DNA of 64,000 nucleotides from Caldilineaceae bacterium (GTDB lineage: Bacteria; Chloroflexota; Anaerolineae; Caldilineales; Caldilineaceae): contig JAPKMW010000069.1 in the NCBI GenBank assembly GCA_026645575.1, positions 1 through 64,000 on the forward strand, in the 5' to 3' direction. A model generated the notes under the pieces. The model searched no databases. It worked only from the letters and a program-made list of their open reading frames with translations, and was not told where the DNA came from. The first letter of the stretch is position 1. Every line of letters starts with the position of its first letter. Positions 12,659 to 56,067 of the stretch are shown here, in pieces. Position numbers and translations under genes: made by a program.

Positions 12659-12794
12659 GTACCATTCAATGGTACACCCCACAATGCGACACTTCTGGCC
12701 CTTGTGATGTACCCGCTTTCTGTCATACTGGTTGGCGTACAAGCAATGTTGTTACGACCAAATCATCAGTCGATCACGAAAGAAGGGTGCAGAG

Positions 12795-14363: not shown

Positions 14364-14369
14364 AAAATC

Positions 14370-14438
14370 GTAGGGGCGTCCGCTTGCCGGCGCCCCTGTT
14401 TGTCCAGAAGCCGGGGCGCAGCCACCGCACGCCCCTAC
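14370..14438. repeat. GTAGGGGCG-type inverted repeat
   Basis: GTAGGGGCG at 14370 and CGCCCCTAC ending at 14438 frame a GC-rich, foldable interior between the two VWA genes. It shares its ends with the larger element at 25493-25574, so both belong to one repeat family. Confidence 0.65.
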
Positions 14439-14460
14439 ACCCTACTTTATGGAGGCTCTT

Positions 14461-38315: not shown

Positions 38316-38364
38316 AACCTACATAGCGATTGTTCAACCATTGGATGCACCGAAAGGAAAACCC

Positions 38365-39654
38365 ATGTTCCGTAGCCATTTCCCATCGTTCCGCCTGTTG
38401 GGCCTCTTGCTCTTTGCCCTTTGGCTGGCCTTTGCCGGCAGCGCCCAAGCGGCAACACCACCCGAATTTCGTACTCATGCGCAACAGCCCGACCTGCCGG
38501 CCGATTGGCAACGCATTACCAATGAAGCAGAAGGTTTCCAGCTTGCGATCCCCGACCAGTGGCAAGCGCTGAAACTATCCGAATCGGCCATTGGCTCGGG
38601 CCTATCGTTGAGCGGCCAGCAAAACCCGGCGTTGCAACCGTTCGTGGAGAACCCCTTCTTTCGACAAATGATGGTCGATGGGTTAAAGTTTCTGGCCTTT
38701 GACCTATCCGATGCAGCCCTTGACTATGCCATGCCGGCGAATGTCAACCTGGTCAAAGTCACGGTTGGCGCTGATCTGCCGCTCACGGCCTTGCAAAAGC
38801 TCAACGAACGGCAACTTGTTGCCCTGGCCGATCCGGATTATGACTTGAAAAGTGAAATTCTCCCCCTGCATGGACGCGAGGTCATCCTCTTTCAATATGT
38901 CGTGAAACAGAAAATGGCCTTTCAGCCGGCCGAATTGGTCGCTATCCATCAGCTTTTGGCCGTGAATGAAGGCAGCCAATACATTCTGACCATCAGCGTT
39001 CCACTGCCCGCCTTCGAAGAGTACAGTGAGACCGTAAGTAGGATACTGGCAAGCTTTCAATTGCTCGCTGCGCCACCAGAGCCTACAGCCAACCCATTGC
39101 TGACGCCAACCCTCACTGTAACACCAACCGTCACCCCGATTCCTGCCGTTGTCGCTGTTGTGCAGATCGCCAAACTCAATGTCCGCAGCGGCCCCGGTAC
39201 AGGCTACGCCATTGTGGGCGCGGTCAGCCAAAACGACCGCCTGCCGGTAACAGGTCGCCCCCGTGGGCGCTGTGATTGGTTCCAAGTCCAACTCCCCTCC
39301 GGTCAGCTTGGTTGGATCGCCGGCCCGCCCACCTATTCAACGCTGGAAGGCAATTGCACCGATGTGCAGGAAGTGATTGTCACGCCCCCGCCGCCCCCGT
39401 CGTCGACCAACCCCTGTGTCCGCTTTGATAATCACTTTAACAAAGTGGCCGATGTTACGCTGACCAGTCCCGGCAATGCTGGCTTTAGTCAAAAGTTCAA
39501 TATTGCGCCCAAGGGTCGCCAAACCCAATGTCTCTCCCCAGGTCGCTATACCTTCTCGGTGGGGGTGCCGGGAATCGGCAACGTCAATGGCGAGTTCACG
39601 CTGGAACGGGGCGGTAGGCTGCTGGTCGTGCCGATATATCAAACGTTCAATTAA
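38365..39654 (+). CDS. Secreted protein with PsbP-like and SH3b domains
   Basis: 430 residues from ATG 38365, preceded by GAAAGGAAA. The signal peptide ends ...AGSAQA. Residues about 40-230 read like a PsbP/DcrB-type domain (NEAEGFQLAIPDQWQALKL); this match is weak. After a Pro/Thr linker an SH3b domain is clear (AKLNVRSGPGTGYAIVGAVS, RCDWFQVQLPSGQLGWIAG). The end (about 345-430) is a compact beta domain with two Cys pairs (NPCVRFDNHFNKVADVTL). SH3b domains bind envelope polymers. Last gene of the sigma-factor cluster. Confidence 0.75.
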   Translation: MFRSHFPSFRLLGLLLFALWLAFAGSAQAATPPEFRTHAQQPDLPADWQRITNEAEGFQLAIPDQWQALKLSESAIGSGLSLSGQQNPALQPFVENPFFRQMMVDGLKFLAFDLSDAALDYAMPANVNLVKVTVGADLPLTALQKLNERQLVALADPDYDLKSEILPLHGREVILFQYVVKQKMAFQPAELVAIHQLLAVNEGSQYILTISVPLPAFEEYSETVSRILASFQLLAAPPEPTANPLLTPTLTVTPTVTPIPAVVAVVQIAKLNVRSGPGTGYAIVGAVSQNDRLPVTGRPRGRCDWFQVQLPSGQLGWIAGPPTYSTLEGNCTDVQEVIVTPPPPPSSTNPCVRFDNHFNKVADVTLTSPGNAGFSQKFNIAPKGRQTQCLSPGRYTFSVGVPGIGNVNGEFTLERGGRLLVVPIYQTFN

Positions 39655-39994: not shown

Positions 39995-41449
39995 CTAGGG
40001 CAGGGCGCGTGAATGCTTGGTATGCGAAAAGCCCAACGCCTCTTTTTCCAGCCACCAATAAAAGCCGTTCCCGTCAATCGCCACGGCATTCCACGCCCGA
40101 TGCTCGGCGTTGATGGTCAACCAGTCGGCTACCAGATCGACGGAACCAGCCGCAATCCGCTGACCCATCGCCTGGGCAATGGCGTTACCAACCGGCTCAT
40201 CCTTGGGGGCAAATAGCTCGGCTGTGGTCGGCTCCGCTTTGAGCGAACCATAGCCCAACAATGCTGTGAGCGGTCCCCCCTTTGCCTTGGTAAGCTTTGC
40301 CCATTGGCTACCGGGACTGGCAGCGGGATTATCAAAGTTTAGGCTCAAGACAGAGCAACCGGCGATCAGCAAGGTGCGCAGTCGCAGATCCGGCGTCCAG
40401 AAAGGCAACAGATCTTCCGCCTTTGCCCAGCATTCAGAGTGACCAGTACTTGGCACAAAGACCGCCAGACAATTGCTCCTGTACAGTCCATGACCGGAGT
40501 AATAGAGCAGATGGGCCGTGTTCCGCACCAACGCTTTACTGACCACCCCATTCACGGTCACAGCCAGCACTTCCAGACCGCCGCTGCGCAGCAAAGCCAT
40601 TGCATCCGGCGCCTCATTGCCAACAGCGCCACTGGCATGGGGCCGGTGGGTGACGGGGTCGATGGTGTTTGGTTGCTGTGCATGGCCGAATGCCAGCCAG
40701 GTGGCGCCCGCCAACCCCTGCCGCAAGTGAGCATCACTGGTGGCAGGGCCGCTGTGATCTATTGCTTCGTTGGCACGGATAACCGTGGCAATTTTCAGTA
40801 CACCGGCTTGCGCCAGACCTGGAATCCCCAACTCGGTCAGGGTCACTGTACGGCGGAAAACCGATTTGCCGGGTGCATCCGCACTCATCGGTGCGTCAAC
40901 AAGCTGCGTGTCCACTGCGACTGGCGCTGGTAGGCTGGTCTGTCCGGCGGCATGGTTGGGCAACCGCGTCGAGACCCCAACGGTGACCACGCTCGGCGTA
41001 TCATTCAGAAAGCCAAAGCCCTCGACCTGAAGATTCACCGTTTGCGCGGCGCTTGATAAAGCAATCACATCTTCATTCCAGTCGAGGGCGCGGCTATAAT
41101 CATCGGTCATCAAAGCCACATGAGTAATTGTAAAGGGTGAACTTTCCTGCAACAGAAAAATGCGCTCCAGCTCCGCCATTGTCTTGGGGCCAACCACGCC
41201 GTCCGCCGGGGCAAGGTGGTGATCCAGCTTGAATTGCGCCACCGCCCCGGCTGTCTCATTGCCAAATTTACCGTCGGCTCCCCATTGCGGCAAGGGGTAT
41301 TGCAAAAAGAGTAGCGCTTCTTGAATCTTGCGCACCGCCGCCCCCTCTTCGCCAACGGTCATCCGGTGTTCGCCATCGTAGCAAGCTTCCAACACTGGGT
41401 CGCCGGCAAAGCGGCGGGATTGTAGATCGTGTCCGTCACCGATAGGCAT
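39995..41449 (-). CDS. Peptidoglycan-binding domain plus caspase-like peptidase, operon gene 6
   Basis: 484 residues, no signal peptide. Residues about 33-97 are a PG_binding_1 domain (GAAVRKIQEALLFLQYPLPQ, GADGKFGNETAGAVAQF, GVVGPKTMAELERIF). After a beta-rich linker, the C-terminal part has a clan-CD cysteine-peptidase pattern. One hydrophobic strand ends in LLYYSGHGLY (H320). A second strand ends in LLIAGCSVLS (C365), the usual His-Gly and Cys spacing of caspase- and gingipain-like enzymes. A closing Gly-rich GPLTALLGYGS follows. This could be a toxin-like or self-processing protease delivered with the assembly. Last gene of the operon, 18 bp after the hemopexin gene. The caspase-like call is from motif spacing only. 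Confidence 0.65.
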   Translation of the reverse strand: MPIGDGHDLQSRRFAGDPVLEACYDGEHRMTVGEEGAAVRKIQEALLFLQYPLPQWGADGKFGNETAGAVAQFKLDHHLAPADGVVGPKTMAELERIFLLQESSPFTITHVALMTDDYSRALDWNEDVIALSSAAQTVNLQVEGFGFLNDTPSVVTVGVSTRLPNHAAGQTSLPAPVAVDTQLVDAPMSADAPGKSVFRRTVTLTELGIPGLAQAGVLKIATVIRANEAIDHSGPATSDAHLRQGLAGATWLAFGHAQQPNTIDPVTHRPHASGAVGNEAPDAMALLRSGGLEVLAVTVNGVVSKALVRNTAHLLYYSGHGLYRSNCLAVFVPSTGHSECWAKAEDLLPFWTPDLRLRTLLIAGCSVLSLNFDNPAASPGSQWAKLTKAKGGPLTALLGYGSLKAEPTTAELFAPKDEPVGNAIAQAMGQRIAAGSVDLVADWLTINAEHRAWNAVAIDGNGFYWWLEKEALGFSHTKHSRALP

Positions 41450-41467
41450 TGTGCATCTCCTTTTTGT

Positions 41468-42811
41468 TTAGCCATTGGTCGGGCCAATTTGCATGTGGAT
41501 GTGATCCTGATGCTTGGCCCGCAACGGTTGACTGGGCGGCGGCGCGTCGATGTAGTCGGGATGGATGACAAAGCCGCCGACATCGCCGATTTCTTTGCCG
41601 GGCCATTGGTTGTTGGCGCCAATCCCATTATTTTCACATTCAAAGGTCCCAAAGCGCCAGGCGGTGAGGAACAAGCGGTGAGCCAGTGGATCGCTGACTG
41701 GATCCAGACGCAGCGGTTGCCCCGGAACGGCCGGTCGATTGCCCCAATCGCGTTGAATTTTCCGATCAAAACTCGCCCCTTGGCTGACGCCATCCACACC
41801 GGAAAGATCAAGGGCGCGTCCCTGGTTATGACAATCGGTGGGCGCACCAGTGCCGTGCCCAATGCCTTTGTGCCGCAGAATCGTGACATCGGGTTCGGAA
41901 GCGTTCAGCCAACGGGTTAGCCGGTAAAGTGCCACCACCATGCGTTGATCGACATTGTCGATCAAGGGGGCCGGGCCGGCATCGTTGATAAACTCGACGT
42001 TGTTGATCGTCGCCGGCTTGATGACAACATGAGTGGCCGGAGCCGGCGACGTAATCGTCGTCTGCCAATCGCCAACATACGGGGTCTGGGTCGGACTGAG
42101 CGTAAACTTGCCGTTCTGAATGAGATAGCCCATCACTTTGTTGGCATCAACCAGGGTCAGATCGCGGGCAGGCGTCCACATACCAGACGGTACTGGATCG
42201 AGGACAAGGGCATCAATCTGCCCGCTCTCATCAACCCCATCCAGGGCGAGGTCAAAGCGGCGGTATTCGTCGTCTTTGAAGAAGTACGCTTTGTTGCCCC
42301 CCTGGTAGAGCGCCCCGTCGAGGCCATCCGGCCAGATGCCGTTCCAGTTGCCGGCAATCGGCTTGGGGTAGTTGTCATCCATGCGATCCAGCGTAATGTC
42401 ATAGCGCAAATATTCGCCGCCACGGAAAAAGTAAAGCTTTCCGTTGCCCCAGTTGAAGGCGGCATCAATGCCGTTTGTCCAGGGCATGTTCCAGTGGCCG
42501 GCAATGGTAAAGGGCTGGTTGGGCGGCAGATACTCAGGATCGACCCCATCGTTGGCGACATCATAGCGCAAGTACTCGGCGCCATAGAAGAAATAGACTT
42601 TGCCAAAGCCCCAGTAGACCGCGGCGTCGGGGCGGGTCGGGCGCAATCCGGGCCAGTTGAAGGCAATCGGCTGCGCCCCCTGATCCCGTGCGCCGCTGAC
42701 AAAATCATGGCGCAGATAGTTAATGCCCGGCACGCCAGGAATCACGGTCTCTTTTTCAAAGAGATAGACTTTGCCGTTGGGCCAGGCCAGCGGCGCTTTA
42801 ATCTTGGTCAT
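41468..42811 (-). CDS. Hemopexin-repeat protein with M15-like zinc peptidase domain, operon gene 5
   Basis: 447 residues, no signal peptide. Four hemopexin-type repeats fill about 10-215, with the marks KVYFFYGAEYLRYD, KLYFFRGGEYLRYD and KAYFFKDDEYRRFD, and would form one beta-propeller. The C-terminal half (about 270-447) has a zinc site like D,D-carboxy/endopeptidases of family M15: DCHNQGRALDL (H328, D335) and HQDHIHMQIG (H437, H439), which match the SxHxxGxAxD and HxH patterns. It could cut peptidoglycan cross-links or peptides. A propeller fused to such a peptidase is unusual. Lies 38 bp after the 530-residue gene. Confidence 0.72.
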   Translation of the reverse strand: MTKIKAPLAWPNGKVYLFEKETVIPGVPGINYLRHDFVSGARDQGAQPIAFNWPGLRPTRPDAAVYWGFGKVYFFYGAEYLRYDVANDGVDPEYLPPNQPFTIAGHWNMPWTNGIDAAFNWGNGKLYFFRGGEYLRYDITLDRMDDNYPKPIAGNWNGIWPDGLDGALYQGGNKAYFFKDDEYRRFDLALDGVDESGQIDALVLDPVPSGMWTPARDLTLVDANKVMGYLIQNGKFTLSPTQTPYVGDWQTTITSPAPATHVVIKPATINNVEFINDAGPAPLIDNVDQRMVVALYRLTRWLNASEPDVTILRHKGIGHGTGAPTDCHNQGRALDLSGVDGVSQGASFDRKIQRDWGNRPAVPGQPLRLDPVSDPLAHRLFLTAWRFGTFECENNGIGANNQWPGKEIGDVGGFVIHPDYIDAPPPSQPLRAKHQDHIHMQIGPTNG

Positions 42812-42849
42812 CTTGTTATCATCCTTTTGAAAAGCAAAGAATTACGCGT

Positions 42850-44442
42850 TTATCCTACGTCAGTTGCCTCTTCCATGACATCAAAGCGCAGGCGGCGGGC
42901 CGGTGGTGACAGGAGGGGCCGGCGTTGGCGTTGCAGCCACAGCACGGGCGCGCCACTCATATCACGCGCTAGTTGCCAGCGGCGTTCCAGTTCGATCCCG
43001 TTGCTGGGAATCGCCAGGGGCTGAATGGTTGGGCTTTGCAACACGGCAGCCTGCGTCTTGGGCATGGCGACCGGCTGCTGGCGGGAGAGATCCACCAACT
43101 GGCGCTGCACCAGCCGCCGTTCGCCGGCCACCTCATCAATTTCATAGGGATGCCAGTAGGGGGCAATACCCTGCGCCGGGACATAGGCGTATTCCTTGGC
43201 GGTGCGCGCATCGCCGGTGGGGTTGCCATTGTTAAAGCGGGGATGCGCCGCCTCATCCACCGCGGTGACCGGGAGCGCCGCTACCGCCCGCCCATCAATG
43301 GTCCGTTCCACGGCCCAGAGCAGGTTGGCCTCTTCATCAAGACCAAACTGCACCTGTTCCAGCGCACCGCTCTCCAGCGGCAGTTCGGCCACATGCCATA
43401 AGAGCAGATCAGACGCCGACAGCCCCGGTTCACCCGCCGCCACGCCATCGACCTGGAAGAGCGTCCAATCGGGCGGGGGCTGCAACCCCGGCCACCGCTT
43501 GTCGCCGGCAGCGTTCGTCTCTTCGCTCGTGTAGGTGCGCCCAAAGGCATCCGTCACCGTCAGCGCGGCCAACGCCACCTGATGACCGGCGCGATGACCC
43601 ATTTGGGATGAGACTGGGAAGAGAAACCAGTCATCGCTGTGGGAAAAGATCAACTCGGTGAGCAACGCTGTCGGTGTATGCGCGCTGTCAGGCGCATAGC
43701 CGCCAATATCGACGGCCGCGTCTTCAATCTGCCACCAGCGATTGGCCGGCGCCCCCGGATAGTGCAACTGGGTTGGGATAGCTTCGCCGGGTTCAACCAG
43801 CGCTTCGACGCCGCCGGCCAAGTGTGTGGCGTCCACCGAATGCCAATCCAACCGGCCACCGCGGTGTTGCTGCACCACCAACTGCTGATCGCCGGCAGCA
43901 AAAGCATTCGCGGGCTGCTGTTGATAGATCAGCGCTTCGTTGTCCCAGGCCGGTGTGTTATCAGGCGGGATCTCGGCGCCAAAGTCCGCAACGGTTAGGC
44001 CGAGGTCGTCTCGCCGACGCCAGAGCGCTCGTCCGTCCACTTGCCCTTTGAAACCTTCATAGGGCGGTGGCGGCGCAGCAAAACATACCTCAGCTTGCGC
44101 CAACAGATCGGGGCGCAGGGCGGCCAGCCGTTTGCCAATGCGCACGCGCCGGCCCATCGTCCACCAGTCATCGACCTCCGCTTCGACAATCGCCTCTGCC
44201 GGCGTTACCGTCGGGTCAAAACGGGGGCCAACGGGCGCGCCAGTGGCGGTAATGGCTTGACTGCGCAACATATAGTCAACCCAAACCGGCGAGGAAGCAT
44301 TTTCCCCCTGCTGTTCCCCCATCTGCCACTGGCGTCCCAGGAACCAGACGGGGTCATGAAGCGCAGCCTGAAAACCTGCGGCCAGATCACTTTCCTGTGG
44401 AGACGGTTCCAGGCGTGCATAAGTCATAAAATTGGTTGCCAT
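42850..44442 (-). CDS. Conserved protein of unknown function, operon gene 4
   Basis: 530 residues without signal peptide or membrane helix. The N-terminus carries the strongest landmark, LHDPVWFLGRQWQMGEQQGE near residue 30, which I recall from uncharacterised proteins encoded next to large partners in other bacteria. The remainder is rich in Trp, His and Pro with many short beta strands (DWFLFPVSSQMGHRAGHQVA), suggesting a structural protein made of beta domains. The start at ATG 44442 lies 15 bp after the 1511-residue gene. No catalytic motif is visible. Function is not assigned. Confidence 0.65.
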   Translation of the reverse strand: MATNFMTYARLEPSPQESDLAAGFQAALHDPVWFLGRQWQMGEQQGENASSPVWVDYMLRSQAITATGAPVGPRFDPTVTPAEAIVEAEVDDWWTMGRRVRIGKRLAALRPDLLAQAEVCFAAPPPPYEGFKGQVDGRALWRRRDDLGLTVADFGAEIPPDNTPAWDNEALIYQQQPANAFAAGDQQLVVQQHRGGRLDWHSVDATHLAGGVEALVEPGEAIPTQLHYPGAPANRWWQIEDAAVDIGGYAPDSAHTPTALLTELIFSHSDDWFLFPVSSQMGHRAGHQVALAALTVTDAFGRTYTSEETNAAGDKRWPGLQPPPDWTLFQVDGVAAGEPGLSASDLLLWHVAELPLESGALEQVQFGLDEEANLLWAVERTIDGRAVAALPVTAVDEAAHPRFNNGNPTGDARTAKEYAYVPAQGIAPYWHPYEIDEVAGERRLVQRQLVDLSRQQPVAMPKTQAAVLQSPTIQPLAIPSNGIELERRWQLARDMSGAPVLWLQRQRRPLLSPPARRLRFDVMEEATDVG

Positions 44443-44457
44443 CAGCTTTATACCTCA

Positions 44458-47400
44458 TTAAACAATGGAATTGAACAACGGGTAGGGTTCCAAATAGGCG
44501 CGCCGTGGGCCGGATGTCGGCAGCCAGAGCGTCGGCGTCAGCGCTTGCCAGGCGCCTAAATCTTCGCTGCGCGCCATGCGGGCGTGAGCCAACTGCCGTG
44601 TTTGCTCAACGATCTGTTGCACCAGCGCCGCATCGAGCCGTTGCCGGGGCTTGGGCGGCACAGCTAGCAGAATGGCCTGCGGGGCGCGGGCGCTAGGAGC
44701 GTTAAAGCCAATGGCGGCGCTGCTCGTGCGCTGCGGCATGGGGATGGCCTCGCTAAAGGCATCGACCAGGCCGACCGCCACCTTGTCGCCGGCCCAAGCA
44801 TCTGTCGGGCCGTAAGTCGCCACCAAGCGCTGGGTGCGCAAACCCAGCACCGATTCATCAACGTGCCGTTCATGGGGTGTGTCGCGATTGCGCAAATTCT
44901 CCGCGACAAGCTGCTGCTGCCAGGGGTCGCCCGGTGAACTGCTCCAGGCGGTCAGCGGCGTCGCCAATTCCAGTTGTAACGCTTCCAGCCGCGCCAGGTT
45001 GGCTCGCGTCGCCGCCACCACCGTCAACCACTGTTCATCCAGCGTGCTTTCCACTTGTCCGATCTGCACGTTACTAGCAGCCAGCAGCCCATCACGCACC
45101 CAACAGGCCAGGATCGCCAGGCGGGCGTTGGGGGCGGCGAGGGTGGCAATGGCCTGCCCCAACGCGCTGATCCCTGTCGGCGCTACGGGGGCATCGTCAA
45201 GCCGTTTTTGCAAGAGATCGGCCACGGTTTGGGCGAGCAGCGCCAGGTCGGTGGCTACCGGCGACGGGGGCAACCCTTGTAACAAAGCGTAGATTGCCGT
45301 CCGATCCCCTGGTTGGCTGATTGGAACCACTCCCCAGGTTAAGGCGCGGCGCAGGTGTAACGCACGGGTGGCGTCATCGGGCGCGGCCAGCAGCTTCGCG
45401 ATCAAGGTGTTGCAACTATCGCGCAACCGGCCATACCGTTCCTGCAATTCAGCGGTAATGGCAGCGTCGGCAGCGGGTTGCGTCGCTGTGCTGCTCAGAT
45501 CGCGCCCCCCAGCCGGTCGGCTCCCCAAGGCGACGACCAGTTGTTGCGCCAGCGCCTGTTGACGAGGGGCCATGATCACGTCCGGCTCTACGCCCAAGCG
45601 CACAGCGGCCAGTTCGCGCAAAAATTGCGCCGAGAGGGCCAGCGTTTCGTGCGGGGCAAAGCCCAACTCTGCCAGCGTCACCCGACCAATCCCCTGACCA
45701 GCAGGATCAAGGGCCAGCCAGGACCAGTCGGCGCCCAGGTGGGTTGCCAAGAAGGCCGCTACCGATGGGTCAGCCAGCCAAATCGGGTCGGCATCTTCGG
45801 CAACGTCCGGGAGGGGTTGATAGGGCAGCGTCGCCAGCACCAGGCTTTCCAGTTGATAACCGGAAGGCGGTGTGCGCATAAACTCGAAGTGGGGTGGACG
45901 GGCAAAGCCGGCGGCGGCTTCCATCGTCTCCGCCGCCCGATCAATTTGCCGGTTGACCACCTGCATCACGCCGTCGGCCATGAGCAGATCACGGTAGGTG
46001 TCCAGGGCGTCGGCGAGCGTTTGCAGAGCGTCCTGTTGGGTTGGCGTCAGGGGAAAGGCCGGATCACCCGCCAGCAAGCCGCGCACGGCCTTGAAGCCAT
46101 CACAGACCTCATGCGGGTCTTGGCGTTCCGGGTACATAGCATAGGCCGCGCTGGTGCGTAACTCTTTCACGCTTTGGTGGCGACCGATAATATTCTCAAC
46201 GTGACGGCCAACAATCTCCTGGATCTGAAACCCCAGCCGCACCTCTTCGGCCAGCGCCTCGGCCAGGCGCACCTTGCGCGAAGAGAGATTCATCGCCCAT
46301 GGATTGCGCCCTTCGCCATTGACCGCCCCGGCGCGCTGTGACGAGAGAAATTTGTCGCGCAGGATCAGCGCTGCCAGGGTTTGGTTGTAGGAGGGCGTAT
46401 GTAAGCGTCCCGCCGCGGTCGGGCCGGGCTGTCCGCGAAAGGGGCCATCCACCCAGCCATAGACGCCCAGGCGATGGGCGCCACGTTCGCTGGCGCTCTG
46501 CTGTTGGAGCCGCTGCCAGGCAAACCCAGTGACCCACGGGTCGATGCGGTGGGTGGCGCTGTCGAGCGTGGCGCGCAGGGCGCGTTCCAACTGGGTGCGC
46601 CGCGCCGCCGGGATGTTCACGGTAAAGCGCTGAATCTCGCCGGTCACTTCGTCTTTGACCTCCCCCAGCCACGCCTCTTGATCAAATTCCTTGGCCAGAC
46701 GCAGTGCGCTGCGTTGCTGGGCGCGGGCCACCTGCTCCTGAGCCGGCGGCATAGCAAGTTGTTGCCAGGGCGCCGCCTGTTGGGTGGCATAGATCAGCAG
46801 CCGGAGCAGCAGGCTATCGGGCAGGGTGCTGAGTTGATATTCCCCCTGCTCATCCAAGACCCACCAGCGTTCAAAGATCCGGACCAGATCCAGTTGTTCC
46901 GGCGGTTCATTGGCGCCCACCTCGAAGAGCAGTTCCAGGAAGCGCGCCAGCGGCAGCCGACCATGATTTTCGCGTTCGCGCCGGCGGTAGAGCATGGCGG
47001 TCGGTTGCACCAGCGGCAATTCACGGCGGCGGAAGCCCAGATGGGCGTGACCGGTGGCGAGATAGATCGCCTGCGGCTCACGCCCCAAACGGTCAATGGC
47101 AGGCTGGTAGAATTGGCGCGCATTTGCTAAAAACGCGTCTTGGCGCTCTTGATCCAACCCGAACGCGGTGATGTAGGGAGCCAACTGCACCCACGCTGGG
47201 CTGAAGTGGCGTTGCAGATAGCGTTGGCTGACCGCGTTTTGGCCCAACAGTTGCATAAATTGCTCCGTTGTCTTACCCACAACAGAACGACGGCCTTGTA
47301 CAACCGCAGCCCATTCGGCGCACAGTTCACTCAGGCTGTGCGCCATTGCCTCTTCCAGCGCGGCTTGGGCTTGCGCTTCGGGCTGAAAAACCAGGGTGCT

Positions 47401-48993
47401 CTGCCACTGGCTCAGGTCGGTCACCGGTAGCAGGCCATAGGGTTGGTCGCTGATGCGTAATGGCAGGAGCGGGCCTTCGGGGCAGAAATGGGAGACCATC
47501 CAACTGCCGACGCGATAACTCTCCTCGCCGACCTGCCACAGGTCATGCAGCCAGTGACCCCAGAGCGCCGGCCAGAGCGCCTGCACCAGCCGCTGACTAT
47601 CGCGCGTGTCGTCAAAGCGATCAGCGCCGGGGAAGAAGGGTAGATCCGGCGCATCGCCGATCAAATATTGTTGCACCTTGCTGCCGACGCTGCCCAGCAG
47701 ACGCAGATTGGGGTCAGCTTTTTGGCGCAAACGCATCTGTGCCACCTGGCGCCAGCCAGCGTCATTGGTGGCGAGATCGGCGGCGGGCTGGCCCTGGATG
47801 GTGTTGGTCGGTGCGCCCAGTGGCAACACGCCCAATTCGCCGGCATCGACTTGGGTGCGGAAATGTGCCGCCGGGGCTTCATCACCAATGCCCACCACAT
47901 AGAGTGCGGTGATATTTTCGGGCGTCATGCCTGCCGGCAAGAGCCATTCCCCGGCCAGCCCCACCGCTTTGGCCGTTGCCCAGTTGCTCCACCACTGTTG
48001 TCGATCAGTGGCAGCTTCGGTCGGCAGGGGCAGTGTCAGCGCCGCAGGGTCGATCACCTTGTCGGCATCCATTGGCAAACGACCGATGGCGTGTTCCGTC
48101 ATACCATCGATGGCGACTTGGCTAACGGCGACCACCTGGAGTTCCGGCGGCAGCCCCCCGACACGGTTGGGTTGTGCTTGGGCCGGCATAGCGTCCGGCA
48201 ACACCAGGGTGACGGTTGCGCCGTCGAAAGCAGTTTCAATATTGGCAACCAACCAAGCTGCGCGCGCCGGCGTCACTTGGGCGCAGAACTGCTGCCAGGC
48301 GATCCCGACTCGGTCGCCCGGATCGGCGCCGTCGAGCCAGGTCGTCATGGGGGCGTCCGGTTGCTGCACCGCGTCCCAAAAGGCGCACAGGGCTTGTTGT
48401 TCACCGGCGCTGACATGGGCATTATCCCGACAGATCGACGCCTCATCAGGGATAACGCGCAAGGAAAGTTGCCAGCAGGCGCCATCGGCATTGAACTGGG
48501 ACCCTGGCTCATCAAAGAGCGTCTCCAGGCGCACCGGCAACAAGACGCCGACATCGTCAAAGGGGTAGGGGCGGTCGTCCGCCGGCAACCCAAGCCAGCG
48601 GCGATGGCCGGCAAAGAGCAGTTCCTGCAAGATGCTCTCATCTCCACCAATGGCCGCCCGCACCTGGTCGAGATAATCGCGCGGCGGGTCGCCAGGGAAA
48701 TGGGGCAGGGTTTCAATGGCGGCGGCTTGGGCTTCGCTCAAGGTTGCGACTTGTCCCAACGCCCGCAGTGCGGGGTCATCGTCCACGGCCAGTTTGAGCG
48801 TCAGACGGATCGACCAGAGCCAATCCGCCCCTACGGCCAGATAGGTGCGGTCACTGACCGACCAATCATCCTGTTGCAGGGCGTCCCATTCGCTTTGCAA
48901 GGGGGCGCGCAGGTCGTTGGCTTCCTCACCCAACGCGACCAGCGCCGCCTCGATCATCTGTTTACGCGCATCACGGTAGCGATAGCTGTTCAT
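44458..48993 (-). CDS. Very large protein of unknown function, operon gene 3
   Basis: 1511 residues, no signal peptide, no membrane helix. The N-terminal part (about 1-350) has the phrase GVLLPVRLETLFDEPGSQFN followed by an acidic region and SLRVIPDEASI. This is a pattern I recall from big hypothetical proteins sharing an operon with the 530-residue type. The middle has LRISDQPYGLLPVTDLSQW and HLGFRRRELPL. The last third is helical with many Leu/Ala/Gln runs. It overlaps the upstream gene by 4 bp (ATGA), so the two products are made in step. A structural or scaffold role is likely; no enzyme motif is seen. Confidence 0.65.
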   Translation of the reverse strand: MNSYRYRDARKQMIEAALVALGEEANDLRAPLQSEWDALQQDDWSVSDRTYLAVGADWLWSIRLTLKLAVDDDPALRALGQVATLSEAQAAAIETLPHFPGDPPRDYLDQVRAAIGGDESILQELLFAGHRRWLGLPADDRPYPFDDVGVLLPVRLETLFDEPGSQFNADGACWQLSLRVIPDEASICRDNAHVSAGEQQALCAFWDAVQQPDAPMTTWLDGADPGDRVGIAWQQFCAQVTPARAAWLVANIETAFDGATVTLVLPDAMPAQAQPNRVGGLPPELQVVAVSQVAIDGMTEHAIGRLPMDADKVIDPAALTLPLPTEAATDRQQWWSNWATAKAVGLAGEWLLPAGMTPENITALYVVGIGDEAPAAHFRTQVDAGELGVLPLGAPTNTIQGQPAADLATNDAGWRQVAQMRLRQKADPNLRLLGSVGSKVQQYLIGDAPDLPFFPGADRFDDTRDSQRLVQALWPALWGHWLHDLWQVGEESYRVGSWMVSHFCPEGPLLPLRISDQPYGLLPVTDLSQWQSTLVFQPEAQAQAALEEAMAHSLSELCAEWAAVVQGRRSVVGKTTEQFMQLLGQNAVSQRYLQRHFSPAWVQLAPYITAFGLDQERQDAFLANARQFYQPAIDRLGREPQAIYLATGHAHLGFRRRELPLVQPTAMLYRRRERENHGRLPLARFLELLFEVGANEPPEQLDLVRIFERWWVLDEQGEYQLSTLPDSLLLRLLIYATQQAAPWQQLAMPPAQEQVARAQQRSALRLAKEFDQEAWLGEVKDEVTGEIQRFTVNIPAARRTQLERALRATLDSATHRIDPWVTGFAWQRLQQQSASERGAHRLGVYGWVDGPFRGQPGPTAAGRLHTPSYNQTLAALILRDKFLSSQRAGAVNGEGRNPWAMNLSSRKVRLAEALAEEVRLGFQIQEIVGRHVENIIGRHQSVKELRTSAAYAMYPERQDPHEVCDGFKAVRGLLAGDPAFPLTPTQQDALQTLADALDTYRDLLMADGVMQVVNRQIDRAAETMEAAAGFARPPHFEFMRTPPSGYQLESLVLATLPYQPLPDVAEDADPIWLADPSVAAFLATHLGADWSWLALDPAGQGIGRVTLAELGFAPHETLALSAQFLRELAAVRLGVEPDVIMAPRQQALAQQLVVALGSRPAGGRDLSSTATQPAADAAITAELQERYGRLRDSCNTLIAKLLAAPDDATRALHLRRALTWGVVPISQPGDRTAIYALLQGLPPSPVATDLALLAQTVADLLQKRLDDAPVAPTGISALGQAIATLAAPNARLAILACWVRDGLLAASNVQIGQVESTLDEQWLTVVAATRANLARLEALQLELATPLTAWSSSPGDPWQQQLVAENLRNRDTPHERHVDESVLGLRTQRLVATYGPTDAWAGDKVAVGLVDAFSEAIPMPQRTSSAAIGFNAPSARAPQAILLAVPPKPRQRLDAALVQQIVEQTRQLAHARMARSEDLGAWQALTPTLWLPTSGPRRAYLEPYPLFNSIV

Positions 48994-51965
48994 GGATGGT
49001 TTCCTCCCTGGTTGCCAAGACTTTCTAAATGGGCGCCGCTGATGGCCACGCGCGTCGGCTGGTCGATGGTGGATTGGGCAAAGGCGGCGCTGTGGCTTGT
49101 CGTGACCTGCGGGCGCTTCTGTTCATCGTTGCGAAAGCGCAACTCGGCGGGCGGCTCGTCCAGCACCAGCCAATATTCGTCCAGCTTGCTTGGCGTCACG
49201 TCAAAGGCAAAGAAGGTGACTTCCGGTGTGATCATGCCGGCAAAGATCGGCCCAAAGTGTTTACGCTTGTCGCGCCATTCGGTCATGGCTGCCTGCCAAG
49301 CCGCGCTGCCTACAGGATGGGGCGACGCCGGCATGTCGAGTTGCGGCAGCGCCGTCAACAGGGCATTGAGCGGCGTCTGCTCCGGTTGATTGGGATCAGG
49401 CGGCACATCGGTATCGACTGCCGGGTCCGGCTTGACCAGGTAGACCAGCGTGGCCGGATAGCGCCGGAAGAGATCGCTGCGAAAGGCGATGACCAACCGA
49501 CTGCCAGTGGCATTGGCCGGGTCGCTGGGCTGGATGGTCTGGTGGCTCAGGTCGCCCAGCGCGTTGGCGGTGGCCTTCGCCCATTCGGCTAGCGGCTCAA
49601 TGTCGGCCTGGCGCTGTTGGGTGGCATAGTTGACCTGGCCCCAGAACATGCGCAAGGGGGTGCAGGTGCGTTCTACCGCCAGATCGCGCCAACGCATCTC
49701 GCTAAGAAATTGGCTGTTGAGGCCGACCAGGTAGGCGTCGATAAAGGCCGGGTTGGTCTGCAACGCGGTGATCGAATCCTTTTCCAGCGCACCGACGCCG
49801 GGCAAGAGCCACTCTTTGTCATAGCGCCGCAGCAGTTCCCAGGTGGGGAAATCCAGCCCGATGGCAAATTCGGGGCGGGTTAGCCGGCTGCAATCGACCC
49901 CCTTAAGCATGGCGCAGAGACGCACCCGCGCCGGGGCTGTAGGCAGACGTGGATCAAGGGCGGCATCCAGCGCCGCCGCCAAGGCGCCAAGGTTGATCGG
50001 CTGCTGGTCAGGTTGCGGTGGAGGCGGCAACAGGTCGATTAGGTCGTCGCAAAAAGTTGCGCGATTTTCAATCGGCAGATGGAGATTGGCAAGCAGCTCT
50101 TCACAGGGGCGTCGCGCCATACAACGGCGCAGCGCCTGCCAGAGGGCGTCATAAAATTGCATCTGTACGCTGTCACTTTCCAGCAGACGAGCGTAATATT
50201 CCAAGATTTCCAAACCGGAACGTACACCGATCTGGCGGATGATCGCCTCGCCTTCGCAAGGCAGCTCTCGCTCCGGCAGGCGCGCCTGTAACAGGTTGCT
50301 CAGTTCAAAGAACAAGTTTTCGCCAAATTCCTGGCGCACCAGTGGTAGATCGGCAAACTGACCGGCTTGTACCAGTTCTGTGTACACGCGGCGGTACTCG
50401 CTACTGAGTTGCTCAACCACGGTCCAGAGTTGGGCAACGACATCGGCCAGCCATTCCTCATCCAGGTGCAGCAACTTTTCCAGCGGCGGCAGATCCAACG
50501 TCTGGACGATGGCGTCGGTGTGGGGCAGCCCGACGGGCGCTCGCTCCGGCAAGGGGGCAGGCTGATTGGCGGCGTCTAGTGCAACGCGGCGGTTCAGCCC
50601 ACCGCCTGGCTCGGCCAGATGACGGGTGCTGGTGCTGCGGTCGCGCAGCAGGCGTTGGGCCGCGCTGGAGAAGAGCGCAGCGGGCAGCGGGCTGCTGTCG
50701 CCAGTGACCCGATCCAGCACCACGCCACCATCGGCGGCCAGCAAACGCGCCATGAGCGGCCCCAGGATGCGCAAGCGTTCGTTGGGATCGCTGGGCAGCC
50801 GTTGATCCCACAAGCGACCGGCGGCCCATAAGCCCAGGGCGAGATGGTTGATCCGTTGACCAGCCTCGCGCAGGGCGCCCGCTTGCTGGACAGCAGCATC
50901 CATCAACACCTCTTGCGCCTCGACGCCCAGCCAGACGCCCAACCCGGCCACGCCGCGCGCCCGCGGGTCGTCGGTCAGTTCATGGGGCCAGCCCACTTCA
51001 ATGTGATCAGGATCGGGCAACCAGGGGCGCCCATAGGGAGGCAGGCCGATAGTGTTTGGCAGGGCATCGTTCAACTGATCGACATCCGCAATGACTTGCG
51101 CCAAAATCGCCGGGTCAGGCGCAACGGGGTCTTGCAGCGAAGTGATGGCGCCGCGCACCTCCATCGACAAGGGATCAATCCCACTGCGGCGGTAGTGTAA
51201 TTTGGCTTTGCCCACATCGGCCGCGGGCGGAATATGCAGGGCGGCGGCTAGTGTTTCAAAATCGCCAGCCTCGGCGGTCCAAAAGCGCCAAGCGTGAAAA
51301 GCCGGCAAGACCCCCTTGCGCCCAAACGTGCGAGTGACGGTGGCGCCGTTGACGCGCCACATTGGTTGGCCCTCGTCGTTAAAGGCGGGTACGAGGACGG
51401 CCTGATACTCATGTTGGGGCAGCAGCCCCATTGGTTTACCGGCCGCATTGCGCGTGGAACCACGGGGCGAGAGAATGCGTGCGATCTCCTGGTTGCCATC
51501 AAACTGGGTGTGCGCCCAAAGATGGGACTCGTCTAGGTTATGTTCCAGCAAAACGGCATCATCCACCTTGGTGACCACGCCTGCTTCCACCTGCAACTCC
51601 TCCCCTGTGCCAACCAGCAAGACCAGCCAGGGGCGGAGCCTCTGCTGCGGGTCGTTGGGCAGAGGGGTGTAGCGCCAGGGGAGATCGGCCTCCCATAGGT
51701 CAAGGTGGACAAACTTGGTTGTTTCGGCATCGCGGGCCAAAGGCGCGGGCGCCGTGTGCTTGATGGCGCCTGTTTGCAAGCCGGCCACATCACCGGCGGT
51801 CAGCAGGGTAAAGGGCGCTTCACCAGTGGCGGTGTGATTCTGGTGGCTGTCGCGCAGGGTCAGCGTCACTTTGCTGCCCAAGCGGGCGCCTTGTTGTTCG
51901 GCCTGTTCAAAGAGCTTGGAACGCCGCCACGGTTTGAAGGTTAGTTTTTCGGGTAAAGGTGCCAT
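48990..51965 (-). CDS. Large protein of unknown function, operon gene 2
   Basis: 991 residues, no signal peptide. Landmarks near the N-terminus are FVHLDLWEADLPWRYTPLPN (about 86-105) and RLRPWLVLLVGTGEELQVEA, suggesting a beta-rich domain that contacts the other operon products. The middle is helical (LEKLLHLDEEWLADVVAQLW) and the C-terminus again beta-rich with FFAFDVTPSKLDEYW. It starts 1 bp after the DUF6603 gene's stop and ends in a 4-bp overlap with gene 3. No recognised domain; function not assigned. Confidence 0.65.
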   Translation of the reverse strand: MAPLPEKLTFKPWRRSKLFEQAEQQGARLGSKVTLTLRDSHQNHTATGEAPFTLLTAGDVAGLQTGAIKHTAPAPLARDAETTKFVHLDLWEADLPWRYTPLPNDPQQRLRPWLVLLVGTGEELQVEAGVVTKVDDAVLLEHNLDESHLWAHTQFDGNQEIARILSPRGSTRNAAGKPMGLLPQHEYQAVLVPAFNDEGQPMWRVNGATVTRTFGRKGVLPAFHAWRFWTAEAGDFETLAAALHIPPAADVGKAKLHYRRSGIDPLSMEVRGAITSLQDPVAPDPAILAQVIADVDQLNDALPNTIGLPPYGRPWLPDPDHIEVGWPHELTDDPRARGVAGLGVWLGVEAQEVLMDAAVQQAGALREAGQRINHLALGLWAAGRLWDQRLPSDPNERLRILGPLMARLLAADGGVVLDRVTGDSSPLPAALFSSAAQRLLRDRSTSTRHLAEPGGGLNRRVALDAANQPAPLPERAPVGLPHTDAIVQTLDLPPLEKLLHLDEEWLADVVAQLWTVVEQLSSEYRRVYTELVQAGQFADLPLVRQEFGENLFFELSNLLQARLPERELPCEGEAIIRQIGVRSGLEILEYYARLLESDSVQMQFYDALWQALRRCMARRPCEELLANLHLPIENRATFCDDLIDLLPPPPQPDQQPINLGALAAALDAALDPRLPTAPARVRLCAMLKGVDCSRLTRPEFAIGLDFPTWELLRRYDKEWLLPGVGALEKDSITALQTNPAFIDAYLVGLNSQFLSEMRWRDLAVERTCTPLRMFWGQVNYATQQRQADIEPLAEWAKATANALGDLSHQTIQPSDPANATGSRLVIAFRSDLFRRYPATLVYLVKPDPAVDTDVPPDPNQPEQTPLNALLTALPQLDMPASPHPVGSAAWQAAMTEWRDKRKHFGPIFAGMITPEVTFFAFDVTPSKLDEYWLVLDEPPAELRFRNDEQKRPQVTTSHSAAFAQSTIDQPTRVAISGAHLESLGNQGGNHP

Positions 51966-51966
51966 G

Positions 51967-54900
51967 TTAGAAGACTCCTGTCAGATCAAGCGCCTGTTCG
52001 GTGGCGGGCAGGGCCAGCCCACCGCTCTGCTGGGCTTGGACGAAGGCTTGCACGCTGTTGAGCGCCGTTGCACTGGTGCGTTGACCGGTGTGGTCATGGG
52101 TGTGCCACGCTTCCTGGCTTACGCTCACCCCTGCCTGGTTTGAAACGATCTTGGCGCCGCCAGCGCGTTCAGCTAAGACGTTGTTGAGCGCGCCGTTGAC
52201 ATAGAGCCGGACGACTAGATCGCGGAAGCGGCTGCGTTGGGGCAATTTCACCAGATCGATTTGGATGGGCGTCTCTGTGCCAGTCACGTCGCTCAACATG
52301 CCGGCGCGCAGGCGCAGACCGGACTGTTGCTTGACAAAGCGGCTATTGTTGAGTGCTTCGCTGTCGTTGAGTTTTAGGAAGCTGCCGACGCCAAACCAAT
52401 CGTCTTCGGGGACGCCGCCCAGGTTGCTGCTCACCGTCAGGGTGTGGCGGCTGCCCAGATCAATGCCCTCGGCTTTTTCGATGGCGAGGTTGAGCGGCAC
52501 CCGCTTCTGCTCCCAGATCAATTCGCCAACGGGCGCCAACAGGTTGCTTTCACGGGCATGGGGGGCAAAGATGACGCTGCGATCTTCGCCTTCGATGCGC
52601 AGATTCTCCGGTTTGCTCAGTTCGCCCTTGCGCAGTTCCGGCTGGAGATATTGGGGTAGGTTGGGAATCGGGGCGATCTGCTCCTTGGGGTTGCTACTCA
52701 GTTCAATGGTGACATTAGCTGAGACCTTGACAAAGAGGATGCGGACGCTGGCGCGGGCGGCCAAGACCAATGGCCCCGGCCCGCTCAACTGCCCCTCCAC
52801 CCGCACACTACAGAGCGAGACGCCAAAGACTTCGACATCAAAGCCGGCATCGACACGGGCGATAAAGTAGAAGGGCTTGAACTGGATGAGCGCATCAAAG
52901 CCAAACCAGCCGTGCGCAGAGATAGGGCCAATTTCGATGCCCGCTTCGGTGCGCGACCCCAACTGGAAGGTGTTGGAGGTGAGCGCCAGATACATCTCTT
53001 GTTTGAGCCAGACAACGCCCAGGGAAACGCTGACGCCAACGCGCGCCACCCGTGGCAGTTCCATGGCGCCGGGGTTGAAGGCCGGATGAAAGCCACCCAC
53101 CGTAAAGAGAAAATAGCCGTTGACGCCATAGGCAATGCGCAACGCTACGCCGCCGGTAATGCGGAAGATGCCCAACACATGGGAGTTGACCAGCGCCGCG
53201 TCAAAGAAGATGAGCGATTTGGTAAAGTCAATGCCGCCGATAAAGTCCATGCGCAGATAGACCAGGGCAACGTCTTCGGAACCAATGACCAGCCGCGCCG
53301 AGCCGGCAATAAAGATTTTACGCGGGCCGGGCAACTCGATAAAGACGCCGACATCAAGCTTCAGCAGGGCCAGCCAGTTGATCTGCAAGGTGGGGCCGAT
53401 GAGAAAGACCCCCTTTTCCACCGGGAAAAACTCGCGCATGTCACCCAGCAATTTGGGGGCATTGCGCATGGGGTCGTCATTAAAGAGCACATCCCCGGCC
53501 GCGCCGCTGGTCAACCGCTCGCGCAACAGGTCGGTGTCGGCGCGGCGATTGATGCCGACCAGCCCGCCAAAGCCGGAGACGGCAAAGCCAAAGCCCAGTT
53601 GAATGCCCGGCAGCGGCAGCCGAATGCCAATGAGCGCGACAAAGGCCGGATCGCCACCGGGGAGCGCCTGGTAGATGCCATAGGCAAAGGCGCCAATGCC
53701 CAACACCTTGAGTTGCAGGGCGCCGGCAAATTCGTTGTCGCTGATCAGATTGAGAAAGCCGCCGCCCTTGACCGGGCCAGCATCTAGTTCCAGACCAATG
53801 CCCTGGGGTGGCAACAGCCCGCCATTGTCGCCCTGCCAGCGCCCAAACCAAACGCCGGCGCCATCCATCGCCGCGCGCAGCGGCCCAAGCTGGGCATTGG
53901 CGCCATAGCGGAAGAGCGCCCGTAGGTGAAGCCCCCCTTCTTTAGGGGCGATTTCCAGCCGCGTCACCACCGTATCAAGGTTGAGACCAGCCCCGCTGCC
54001 GCCGATCTTGAGGTTGAGTGGCGTAGCAAATTGCACGCCCAGCGCCGGTAAGCCGTCGGCGCTGCCCTGGCCGGTCAACCCCTGGCCCTGGACGTAGCGC
54101 ATCTCAACATCGGAAGCGAATTTGAGTTGGGTCGGCAAGTTGAGGCCAAAGTTGAGAAATTTGAGAAAATCTGGCTTGAGCGCAAATTGCACCTTAGCCA
54201 ATTGGAGCGCAAGGTCAAAGCGCGGGGCGCCGCTATGCAGCCGTAGCCCTAACGCCACCGTCTGGATGGCAAAATGCGTCCCCGCTGGCTCACCAATGAG
54301 CAGGGCGTTGGCATTGGCGGGTTGCTTGCGTAGGAAGATGCCAAAGTCGCCGTCGGATGGGGCTGCGCCATCAATGCCCGTGGCACTGAATTTGATCTGA
54401 ACGCGCTGCAAGCCGGTAGCGCTGCTGGTAAAGGTCAGTTGCCAGCCGTTGCCCAGATCGACCGAGCGCGCTTTGAGGCTTTCGGCGGCTTTGATCCCGA
54501 CTTCGACGCCCAATTCATTCAGTTGTGCAAACGCATCCGGGCCATTAAGCGCCAGATAACCGATGGCGCCTTCTGCCGCAGGGCCGGCCTGTGTCTTGAA
54601 CTCTTCCAGCGTTAGTGGCAGGGTAAAGGGCAGTGGCAGCCGCAACGGGGAATTGATCAGATCGATCAACTGGTCAAGCGTCACGCCCGGTTCGCCGGCT
54701 ACGGGTAAGGCGGCAAAGCCTTCCTGACTGTACTCCAGGGTCAGCAGGGCTTGGGGTGAGGAGAGCAGTAACAAGGTCAGCGCCTGCAACGCTTTGACAT
54801 CGTCTAACTTCTGCACCTTGTTCAACAGTAAATTAAGTGCATAGTCGCCCGGCTCCGTCAGGAGATCCTGGAGCGCGGCCCAGTTGATGGCAAAGGCCGC

Positions 54901-55197
54901 CGGTTGGGCGCCCTCCCATTGGAAGCTGATGACGCCCAGGAGGGTCAATGCTTCGGCCAAGCGGGGGAAGCTCATCTGAAGGGCGCGCACCACCAACGTT
55001 TCATGCAAGCGGGTGTCATTGGTGATGGTGCGCAGGGTCGCCAGCCAGCGGGCAATGCCTTCGCCACTGGGATCCACACTCACCGCCCCCAACACAGCCA
55101 GCCGGTCGCCGATGGGCAGCAGGATCGGCGGCGGTGGCGGGTCGCCGGCCAGACTCTTTTGTAGCACCTGGGTAAGCGATTCGAGGATATTTGCCAT
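51967..55197 (-). CDS. DUF6603-type large protein, operon gene 1
   Basis: About 1076 residues from ATG 55197 (an ATG 16 codons earlier exists, in sequence that looks intergenic). There is no signal peptide. Residues about 230-760 consist of many repeated amphipathic strands with GFGFAVSGFGGLVGINRRAD and FLIGPTLQINW, resembling a long beta-helix or open beta-barrel-like sheet. I connect it with the DUF6603 family, known only from bacterial hypothetical proteins. The C-terminal 250 residues are a separate beta domain (IAPIPNLPQYLQPELRKGEL). First gene of the six-gene operon, so presumably made in the largest amount. Confidence 0.7.
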   Translation of the reverse strand: MANILESLTQVLQKSLAGDPPPPPILLPIGDRLAVLGAVSVDPSGEGIARWLATLRTITNDTRLHETLVVRALQMSFPRLAEALTLLGVISFQWEGAQPAAFAINWAALQDLLTEPGDYALNLLLNKVQKLDDVKALQALTLLLLSSPQALLTLEYSQEGFAALPVAGEPGVTLDQLIDLINSPLRLPLPFTLPLTLEEFKTQAGPAAEGAIGYLALNGPDAFAQLNELGVEVGIKAAESLKARSVDLGNGWQLTFTSSATGLQRVQIKFSATGIDGAAPSDGDFGIFLRKQPANANALLIGEPAGTHFAIQTVALGLRLHSGAPRFDLALQLAKVQFALKPDFLKFLNFGLNLPTQLKFASDVEMRYVQGQGLTGQGSADGLPALGVQFATPLNLKIGGSGAGLNLDTVVTRLEIAPKEGGLHLRALFRYGANAQLGPLRAAMDGAGVWFGRWQGDNGGLLPPQGIGLELDAGPVKGGGFLNLISDNEFAGALQLKVLGIGAFAYGIYQALPGGDPAFVALIGIRLPLPGIQLGFGFAVSGFGGLVGINRRADTDLLRERLTSGAAGDVLFNDDPMRNAPKLLGDMREFFPVEKGVFLIGPTLQINWLALLKLDVGVFIELPGPRKIFIAGSARLVIGSEDVALVYLRMDFIGGIDFTKSLIFFDAALVNSHVLGIFRITGGVALRIAYGVNGYFLFTVGGFHPAFNPGAMELPRVARVGVSVSLGVVWLKQEMYLALTSNTFQLGSRTEAGIEIGPISAHGWFGFDALIQFKPFYFIARVDAGFDVEVFGVSLCSVRVEGQLSGPGPLVLAARASVRILFVKVSANVTIELSSNPKEQIAPIPNLPQYLQPELRKGELSKPENLRIEGEDRSVIFAPHARESNLLAPVGELIWEQKRVPLNLAIEKAEGIDLGSRHTLTVSSNLGGVPEDDWFGVGSFLKLNDSEALNNSRFVKQQSGLRLRAGMLSDVTGTETPIQIDLVKLPQRSRFRDLVVRLYVNGALNNVLAERAGGAKIVSNQAGVSVSQEAWHTHDHTGQRTSATALNSVQAFVQAQQSGGLALPATEQALDLTGVF

Positions 55198-55489: not shown

Positions 55490-55726
55490 ATGACGCTAAG
55501 AACAACTGTCTATTTAGATGAAGGTGTCGCCGAACGAATACGACGTTTTATTCCCCAGCGTGGTCTTAGTCAGTTGGTTAACGACTTGTTACAACAAAAA
55601 GCGGCCGAACTGGAACAAGCGGAAATCGAACGCCAGATGCGTGAGGGTTATCTAGCCGTGCGAGAGGATCGCAAGGCGCTCAACGAAGAATGGCAGATCG
55701 TTGACGGTGAGGGGTGGCCGGCATGA
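55490..55726 (+). CDS. Ribbon-helix-helix antitoxin of MazEF-type pair
   Basis: 78 residues. The N-terminus RTTVYLDEGVAERIRRFIPQ followed by GLSQLVNDLL has the strand-helix-helix pattern of Arc/MetJ-like DNA-binding antitoxins. The rest is a charged helix with Gln/Glu, apt to wrap the toxin. It presumably represses its own operon and neutralises the downstream MazF-like toxin, whose start codon overlaps its stop (ATGA). Confidence 0.85.
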   Translation: MTLRTTVYLDEGVAERIRRFIPQRGLSQLVNDLLQQKAAELEQAEIERQMREGYLAVREDRKALNEEWQIVDGEGWPA

Positions 55727-56067
55727 ACTACCCTCACCGTGGTGAAGTGTACTGGGTTCAGTTAGATCCAACCATTGGCTCCGAAATTGCCAAAACGCGA
55801 CCGTCGGTCATCATTTCCAATAATATCGGCAATCAGGTGGCGGATCGGGTCATTGTCGCACCGATGACGACCGCCAATGTGGGCAAAGTCTACCCGTTTG
55901 AGGTGAAAGTGGAAAGCGGTGAAGGCGGGGTTGCACAACCCAGCAAAATTTTGCTCGACCAGATTCGCACCGTCGATAAAGCACGTCTAGGGAATCGGCT
56001 TGGGCAACTACCGGCAGCACGGATCGAAGAAGTGAATCGTGCAATCCGGTTGAGTTTGGCCGTGTAG
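55723..56067 (+). CDS. MazF/PemK-type endoribonuclease toxin
   Basis: 114 residues from ATG 55723, overlapping the antitoxin stop; a GTG three codons upstream is less likely. The family core is clear: RGEVYWVQLDPTIGSEIAKT, RPSVIISNNIGN, VIVAPMTTAN, and SKILLDQIRTVDKARLG with the conserved late strand. The Arg and Thr residues expected at the active site are present. It cuts mRNA at short sequences when freed from its antitoxin. The pair lies head-to-head with the six-gene operon and may stabilise that locus. Confidence 0.9.
   Translation: MNYPHRGEVYWVQLDPTIGSEIAKTRPSVIISNNIGNQVADRVIVAPMTTANVGKVYPFEVKVESGEGGVAQPSKILLDQIRTVDKARLGNRLGQLPAARIEEVNRAIRLSLAV

Follow-up and report, generated by a model that had tools for sequence, protein, structure and literature searches.

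A conserved four-gene cassette of large proteins, three of them without a known family, and its changing companion enzymes in bacteria and archaea

The 64,000 nucleotides analyzed here (the window; contig JAPKMW010000069.1 of a Caldilineaceae bacterium, positions 1 to 64,000) carry an operon of six open reading frames (ORFs) on the minus strand, running from position 55197 down to 39995 and encoding 5,039 residues in total. The first four genes, which encode a DUF6603 protein and proteins of 991, 1511 and 530 amino acids (aa), form a conserved cassette, and the last two are variable companions. The original prediction for this operon, which had taken all six families as a unit, is thus partly supported: the first four families do occur together, but the M15-like and caspase-like enzyme genes that follow them belong to the changing surroundings. 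Because the order of the four genes is kept, the enzymes beside them change and some of these carry a matching attachment domain, we tentatively read the cassette as a device for carrying and deploying enzymes, in which a leaderless machine would hold a companion hydrolase and the DUF6603 protein would be the membrane- or lipid-engaging part.

At E<=0.001, 540 of 7,997 scored candidates are related to the 530-aa protein; identities are 50-99% in the 120 best of these 540, and the sources named among the matches listed include Chloroflexota, Pseudomonadota, Bacteroidota, Actinomycetota, Acidobacteriota and Planctomycetota. Scanning genome contigs with an alignment of this protein gave 83 relatives, 80 of which were retained as loci: 27 from Bacteroidota, 18 from Pseudomonadota, 14 from Actinomycetota, 8 from Chloroflexota, 3 from Cyanobacteriota, 2 from Planctomycetota, 2 from archaea (Methanobacteriota), one from each of five further phyla and one without assignment, which makes 12 named phyla, archaea included. 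There is room for the whole cassette (8.5 kb or more 5' of the 530-aa gene) in 63 of the 80 loci, and all four core families are present on one strand in 56 of the 63. Their order, judged by ORF start, is identical in 55 of these 56, the exception (L015) being a locus where an over-long frame running to the locus edge disturbs the count. In six of the seven incomplete loci the sequence ends no more than 1.5 kb beyond the 5' end of the 991-aa gene, and for three of these six (L020, L033 and L042) a whole-genome search places DUF6603 just past the edge; in the seventh, an archaeal locus (L040), the 1511-aa gene is present, with no 991-aa match in the preceding 2.8 kb. Searches of the carrier genomes, which represent 50 of the 80 loci, found DUF6603 in 50/50, compared with 0/14 controls. 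When the neighbors of the loci were compared, any family beyond the core was limited to at most 7 of 81 sequences.

The distribution of the cassette across genomes is patchy. The 530-aa protein was found in 4 of 400 genomes in a random Chloroflexota sample, including the center genome (G001), and DUF6603 exceeded the cut-off in 14 of 345 genomes in a random Bacteroidota sample; in these 14, an adjoining match of the 991-aa type was strong in six, weak in two and absent from six. The DUF6603 family (PF20248), of which the first core gene is a member, is wider than the cassette, with 8 of the 14 Bacteroidota carriers forming a second class that has no strong 991-aa-type neighbor. Independent occurrence of the families, named in the original prediction as a result that would speak against it, was not found for the core, but does apply to this second DUF6603 class. 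The eight genomes of the second class (G089, G098, G115, G148, G206, G215, G357 and G369) mostly hold frames of about 1300-3200 codons, two of them with the weak 991-aa-type match just downstream. A DUF6603 protein of 1801 aa (P0233) is also found in a fungus, Tricladium.

Horizontal transfer of the cassette is likely, because a tree of the 991-aa family, made by a quick search with support from the Shimodaira-Hasegawa-like approximate likelihood ratio test (SH-aLRT) only, and in which long branches meet, has at least 19 phylum changes (the minimum being 9 and the shuffled mean 35.4) and groups Methanoperedens with a Niastella at full SH-aLRT support. The tree has 65 rows, three of the 68 members having been dropped as shorter than 780 residues. 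In 23 of the 68 members a variable linker holds a strongly hydrophobic, transmembrane-like segment, which the window copy lacks, and surface-type inserts are present in core proteins. Plasmid carriage was seen in 14 of 72,556 records. Two plasmid loci depart from the usual gene structure: on a Rhizobium plasmid (L085, 7060-19668) two adjacent genes take the place of the 991-type gene and another two that of the 1511-type gene, and on a haloarchaeal plasmid (L083, 910-20586) the third gene encodes 3124 aa and holds decapeptide repeats, with a lamin-tail domain on the last cassette gene. A viral origin was considered and rejected: relatives of the 530-aa protein were absent from the viral contigs searched, 50,697 phage records gave one partial, weak match, and the core has no PHROG family.

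The enzymes encoded next to the cassette are of unrelated classes and differ from locus to locus. DUF6603 was recognized in 39 of 40 upstream stretches that we fetched, and in 24 of the 39 an ORF of 380 aa or more, reading in the same direction, lies no more than 120 bp from the DUF6603 frame. A Pfam scan that covered 20 of the 31 listed neighbors gave three S8 subtilases, three trypsin/NAL1-like proteins (of which only that at L132 was over the cut-off), and one protein each of the PhoD (just under the cut-off), phospholipase D (PLD), patatin and galactose-oxidase-like types; two further PhoD relatives were over the cut-off. An M1 peptidase (L154) and a DUF4954 protein (L130), set off by larger gaps, are probably unrelated neighbors.

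An all-against-all comparison of these proteins revealed a C-terminal stretch of about 120 residues that links subtilases (L120 and L128) with trypsin-like proteases, and the same domain also stands alone in frames of 133 and 144 codons. It occurs almost only beside the cassette and is common to two unrelated protease classes. A profile made from 13 seeds found 17 copies in 12 of the 50 carrier genomes, and 17/17 are upstream of the DUF6603 match, at a distance of 1,263-3,344 bp and in the same orientation. Since the seeds were drawn from carrier loci, the Bacteroidota sample and Paraburkholderia copies are more independent: the 345 Bacteroidota genomes hold three copies, two of which (in G083 and G260, both non-seeds) adjoin DUF6603, and two further non-seed copies lie beside the Paraburkholderia cassette. 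Pooled over both samples, 19 of 20 copies are 1.3-3.3 kb upstream of DUF6603 on the same strand. Of the first-look candidates, a part was scored in each genome (up to 88 per carrier genome and up to 12 per genome of the Bacteroidota sample), so that copies elsewhere may be missed. Seventeen of the proteins that carry the domain have 300 residues or more; GDSG[SG] is kept in 12 of the 15 that are not subtilases, and both subtilases keep HGTH, with GTSMA in one. Pfam gave nothing credible for the domain (the best of 13 members reached E 0.014, with matches to scattered families), and hhalign comparison with the other companions and with P0001 and P0002 gave none, except for the positive control, L123.

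Within the window, the six genes follow one another at distances of 1, -4 (an ATGA overlap), 15, 38 and 18 bp in operon order (Table 1), bearing out the compact, co-directional operon of about 5,000 residues that had been described. The assignment of its first product to DUF6603 also stands, at 357 bits versus a curated cut-off of 27. As had been expected, no known domain was recognized in the three large proteins that follow: they have no Pfam match at E<=0.01 and no NCBIfam or PHROG family, NCBIfam giving sub-threshold matches only for the operon proteins. Profile searches of the PDB with the four core proteins gave nothing credible, and hhalign detected no mutual similarity between the core families. 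Pfam names one core protein of the four, DUF6603, and gives it no function; searches of open-licence papers in PubMed Central found no mention of PF20248 or DUF6603 and, among the matches listed, no paper on the cassette. Judged by hydropathy only, none of the six proteins has a hydrophobic N-terminus, in agreement with the predicted lack of visible signal peptides: the best 19-residue Kyte-Doolittle mean within residues 1-45 is 1.09 for the DUF6603 protein (with an over-long TTG start) and at most 0.56 for the other five. By the hydropathy of its first 45 residues, the DUF6603 protein lacks the Sec signal peptide expected of a BAM-inserted outer-membrane barrel.

Table 1. Genes of the window operon, in operon order
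Feature	Coordinates	Strand	Basis
Core gene 1: DUF6603 protein, 1076 aa from internal ATG	51967..55197	-	Pfam E 2e-106
Core gene 2: 991 aa	48990..51965	-	Pfam: no match
Core gene 3: 1511 aa	44458..48993	-	Pfam: no match
Core gene 4: 530 aa	42850..44442	-	Pfam: no match; 540 relatives, E<=0.001
Companion 1: 447 aa, hemopexin repeats and M15-like C-terminal part	41468..42811	-	Pfam; motif by eye
Companion 2: 484 aa, PG_binding_1 and gingipain/caspase-like part (H320, C365)	39995..41449	-	Pfam; motif

The two companion enzymes of the window had been predicted to be a hemopexin-repeat, M15-like peptidase and a peptidoglycan (PG)-binding, caspase-like protein. For the first, the hemopexin part is upheld by Pfam in three stretches and by a PDB match to gelatinase A (E 1.3e-14), but the M15-like part has no sequence match: Pfam and PDB sequence searches of it gave nothing, and of the features that mark the M15/LAS peptidases (HxxxxxxD and HxH zinc motifs with family-level similarity) only the motifs, HNQGRALDL ... 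DHIHMQ, are seen, by eye. The second has the PG_binding_1 domain (E 9.4e-11), and YYSGHG and AGCS, which hold its dyad, are invariant in 8/8 aligned proteins; one of its seven homologues is named 'Gingipain domain-containing'. The His-Gly/Cys dyad suggests a clan CD cysteine protease, an assignment that stays at motif level because the protease part has no Pfam score. The PG-binding companion also matches PHROG endolysin families. Elsewhere, pairing of these companions with the cassette was unseen except for PG-binding relatives at L001, L009 (on the opposite strand) and L086; beside the cassette of a Nocardia plasmid, a downstream S8 gene product has a C-terminus that matches companion 2 in its PG-binding part. 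Since companions vary between loci, the window's two enzymes look like its local version of the changing companion.

The DUF6603 protein is predicted to form a beta sheet or barrel of very large size that has one oily face and is suited to membrane insertion or lipid binding. Its AlphaFold2 model, with a predicted local distance difference test score (pLDDT) of 82.6, has a helical N-terminus followed by about 30 long amphipathic beta strands, whose alternation is 2.85 versus 1.20 +/- 0.17 (0/2000). The closest folds (Foldseek, VIA) are the giant barrels SDBC and SprA, plus ApoB100, so that the predicted strands are nearest both to closed barrels and to an open belt; a viral structure library gave no convincing match. 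The DUF6603 model has the Deinococcus SDBC/SlpA protein, SprA and ApoB100 as its nearest solved structures, but differs from them in its low global similarity and in the lack of a hydrophobic N-terminus, and, unlike the giant barrels, DUF6603 is also found in Gram-positive bacteria and archaea. For the 530-aa protein AlphaFold gave a poor model (pLDDT 61.7), perhaps owing to an input of just 24 relatives that were fairly close to it, and the Foldseek matches of this model were discarded as meaningless.

Other features of the window lie outside the operon. Divergent and directly upstream of it, a plus-strand ORF (55714-56067) resembles a MazF-type toxin by eye and is perhaps preceded by a small antitoxin, the whole stretch being 55490-56067 (+); the next long ORF downstream of the operon is 38341-39654 on the plus strand. 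A 1397-aa protein (29744-33937, +), in a region of lower GC (0.42-0.47 vs ~0.58 around), joins TCAD9 to two periplasmic-binding domains. Farther away, 6402-16416 (+) holds a 2051-aa protein with 17 FG-GAP stretches, DUF11, Calx-beta and Big_5, and behind it are two VWA proteins, one of the YfbK type.

From the observed gene order, companions and shared domain, and from the predicted beta structure, we infer how loading, export and target entry might proceed. The horizontally spread four-gene cassette would encode several leaderless proteins that form a machine together with a companion hydrolase and deploy this enzyme. The enzyme would be loaded onto the core through the ~120-aa domain, the complex would leave the producer independently of Sec, by lysis or by an unknown export route, and variable modules (FG-GAP, lamin-tail, hemopexin) would recognize the target, whose membrane the giant beta structure would open or anchor in, letting the protease or lipase act. 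In the window's version the enzymes would be the gingipain/caspase-like and M15-like proteins, both of which are without the ~120-aa domain. That the cassette represents an undescribed class of enzyme delivery, in which a leaderless, single-chain barrel of about 30 strands works with three scaffolds and is unrelated to phage tails, Tc toxins or known secretion, is possible but doubtful; we are equally hesitant to claim, as part of the same idea, that varied proteases and lipases are loaded onto it, some by a docking domain, and that bacteria and archaea share it horizontally.

Several observations weigh against a device of this kind. Secretion, a particle, a pore and a target are all things that we infer. 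No large companion adjoins the cassette in 15 of the 39 upstream stretches, and 8 of the 20 scanned neighbors have no Pfam family. The ~120-residue domain is absent from the window, from the subtilases at L119 and L134 and from the PhoD, PLD and patatin companions tested, and the 19 kb fetched for one Bacteroidota copy (G079) hold no core gene. For the DUF6603 model, Foldseek template modeling (TM) scores by query are at most 0.16, reflecting low global similarity, and ApoB100 ranks level with the barrels. Soluble beta folds likewise alternate oily and polar residues.

The alternative that survives best, although we consider it rather unlikely, is that the cassette makes a lipid-carrying or surface-matrix complex of the producer's own, in which DUF6603 would serve as a beta belt like that of ApoB or as an anchor in the envelope. 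It would then be coated by the other core proteins, and the enzymes would be displayed or stored for digestion or envelope remodeling rather than delivered, an arrangement that we hold to be no more probable. Proteases are the commonest named companions, which argues against it, as does the lack of a signal peptide, normally needed for surface display, in the window proteins.

An intracellular conflict (defence or suicide) system, in which the core senses an invader and a protease or lipase, tethered by an adaptor domain in the manner of the effector-associated domains (EADs) of ternary systems, kills or disables the cell, seems unlikely. The hosts are often multicellular, which would suit such a system, and in two companions PADLOC gave matches to a subtilase and, weakly, to DrmC; however, it gave no match in any core protein, the cassette is in few genomes, no Pfam EAD corresponds to the companion domain, and the usual sensors are not large beta proteins. 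In having protease and lipase effectors that can replace one another and a small adaptor domain common to some of them, the cassette does resemble the VMAP-type ternary systems in the parts of PMC7159879 that describe them. Those systems are presented there as NTP-dependent, whereas the core shows no sign of the NTPase or MoxR-vWA hub of such systems, with no Pfam NTPase and no shared Walker A motif, and the ~120-residue domain has no Pfam match.

We regard as improbable that the cassette is an accessory of extracellular contractile injection systems (eCIS), supplying or maturing their cargo. Both combine leaderless large structural genes with variable hydrolases, and hemopexin is among the eCIS-associated domains in the portion of PMC8213781 that lists them. 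Among the 50 carrier genomes, Pvc16_N is found in 24 and a sheath in 27, compared with Pvc16 in 0/14 controls, and in the Bacteroidota sample Pvc16 is found in 7 of 14 DUF6603 genomes versus 64 of 331 others (one-sided p 0.012, uncorrected for kinship). However, Pvc16 occurs in 3 of the 6 full-core Bacteroidota genomes (p 0.10), the marker is absent from about half of the carriers, and the linkage to the cassette is weak: no eCIS gene adjoins it in the 50 carriers, sheath and Pvc16 matches, where present, being at best tens of kb away (the nearest seen is in G021). The original prediction correctly saw no contractile-injection gene in the window, since a Pfam scan of 26 window proteins found no sheath, Pvc16 or other such domain and nothing of the sheath, tube, baseplate and AAA cluster of eCIS. 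Tc toxin complexes, which comprise several giant leaderless proteins, an enzyme and a membrane-inserting part, may be compared with the cassette in their way of working only, as its core proteins have no TcA, TcB, TcC or Rhs domain (Pfam, NCBIfam). Finally, a chance operon of six unrelated soluble proteins would partly explain the window's M15-like and caspase-like genes, which are rarely seen paired with the cassette elsewhere, but lends nothing to the core and can be dismissed as wholly implausible given that the same four families stand together across phyla.

In summary, three core proteins without a family and a fourth that is a DUF are nevertheless kept as one block across the 12 named phyla, archaea included. 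The ~120-aa domain on different protease classes offers a handle on how enzymes couple to the cassette. A lipid particle or a conflict system of this composition would be equally unrecorded; should the cassette prove to deliver enzymes, folded enzymes would have a new route across membranes.
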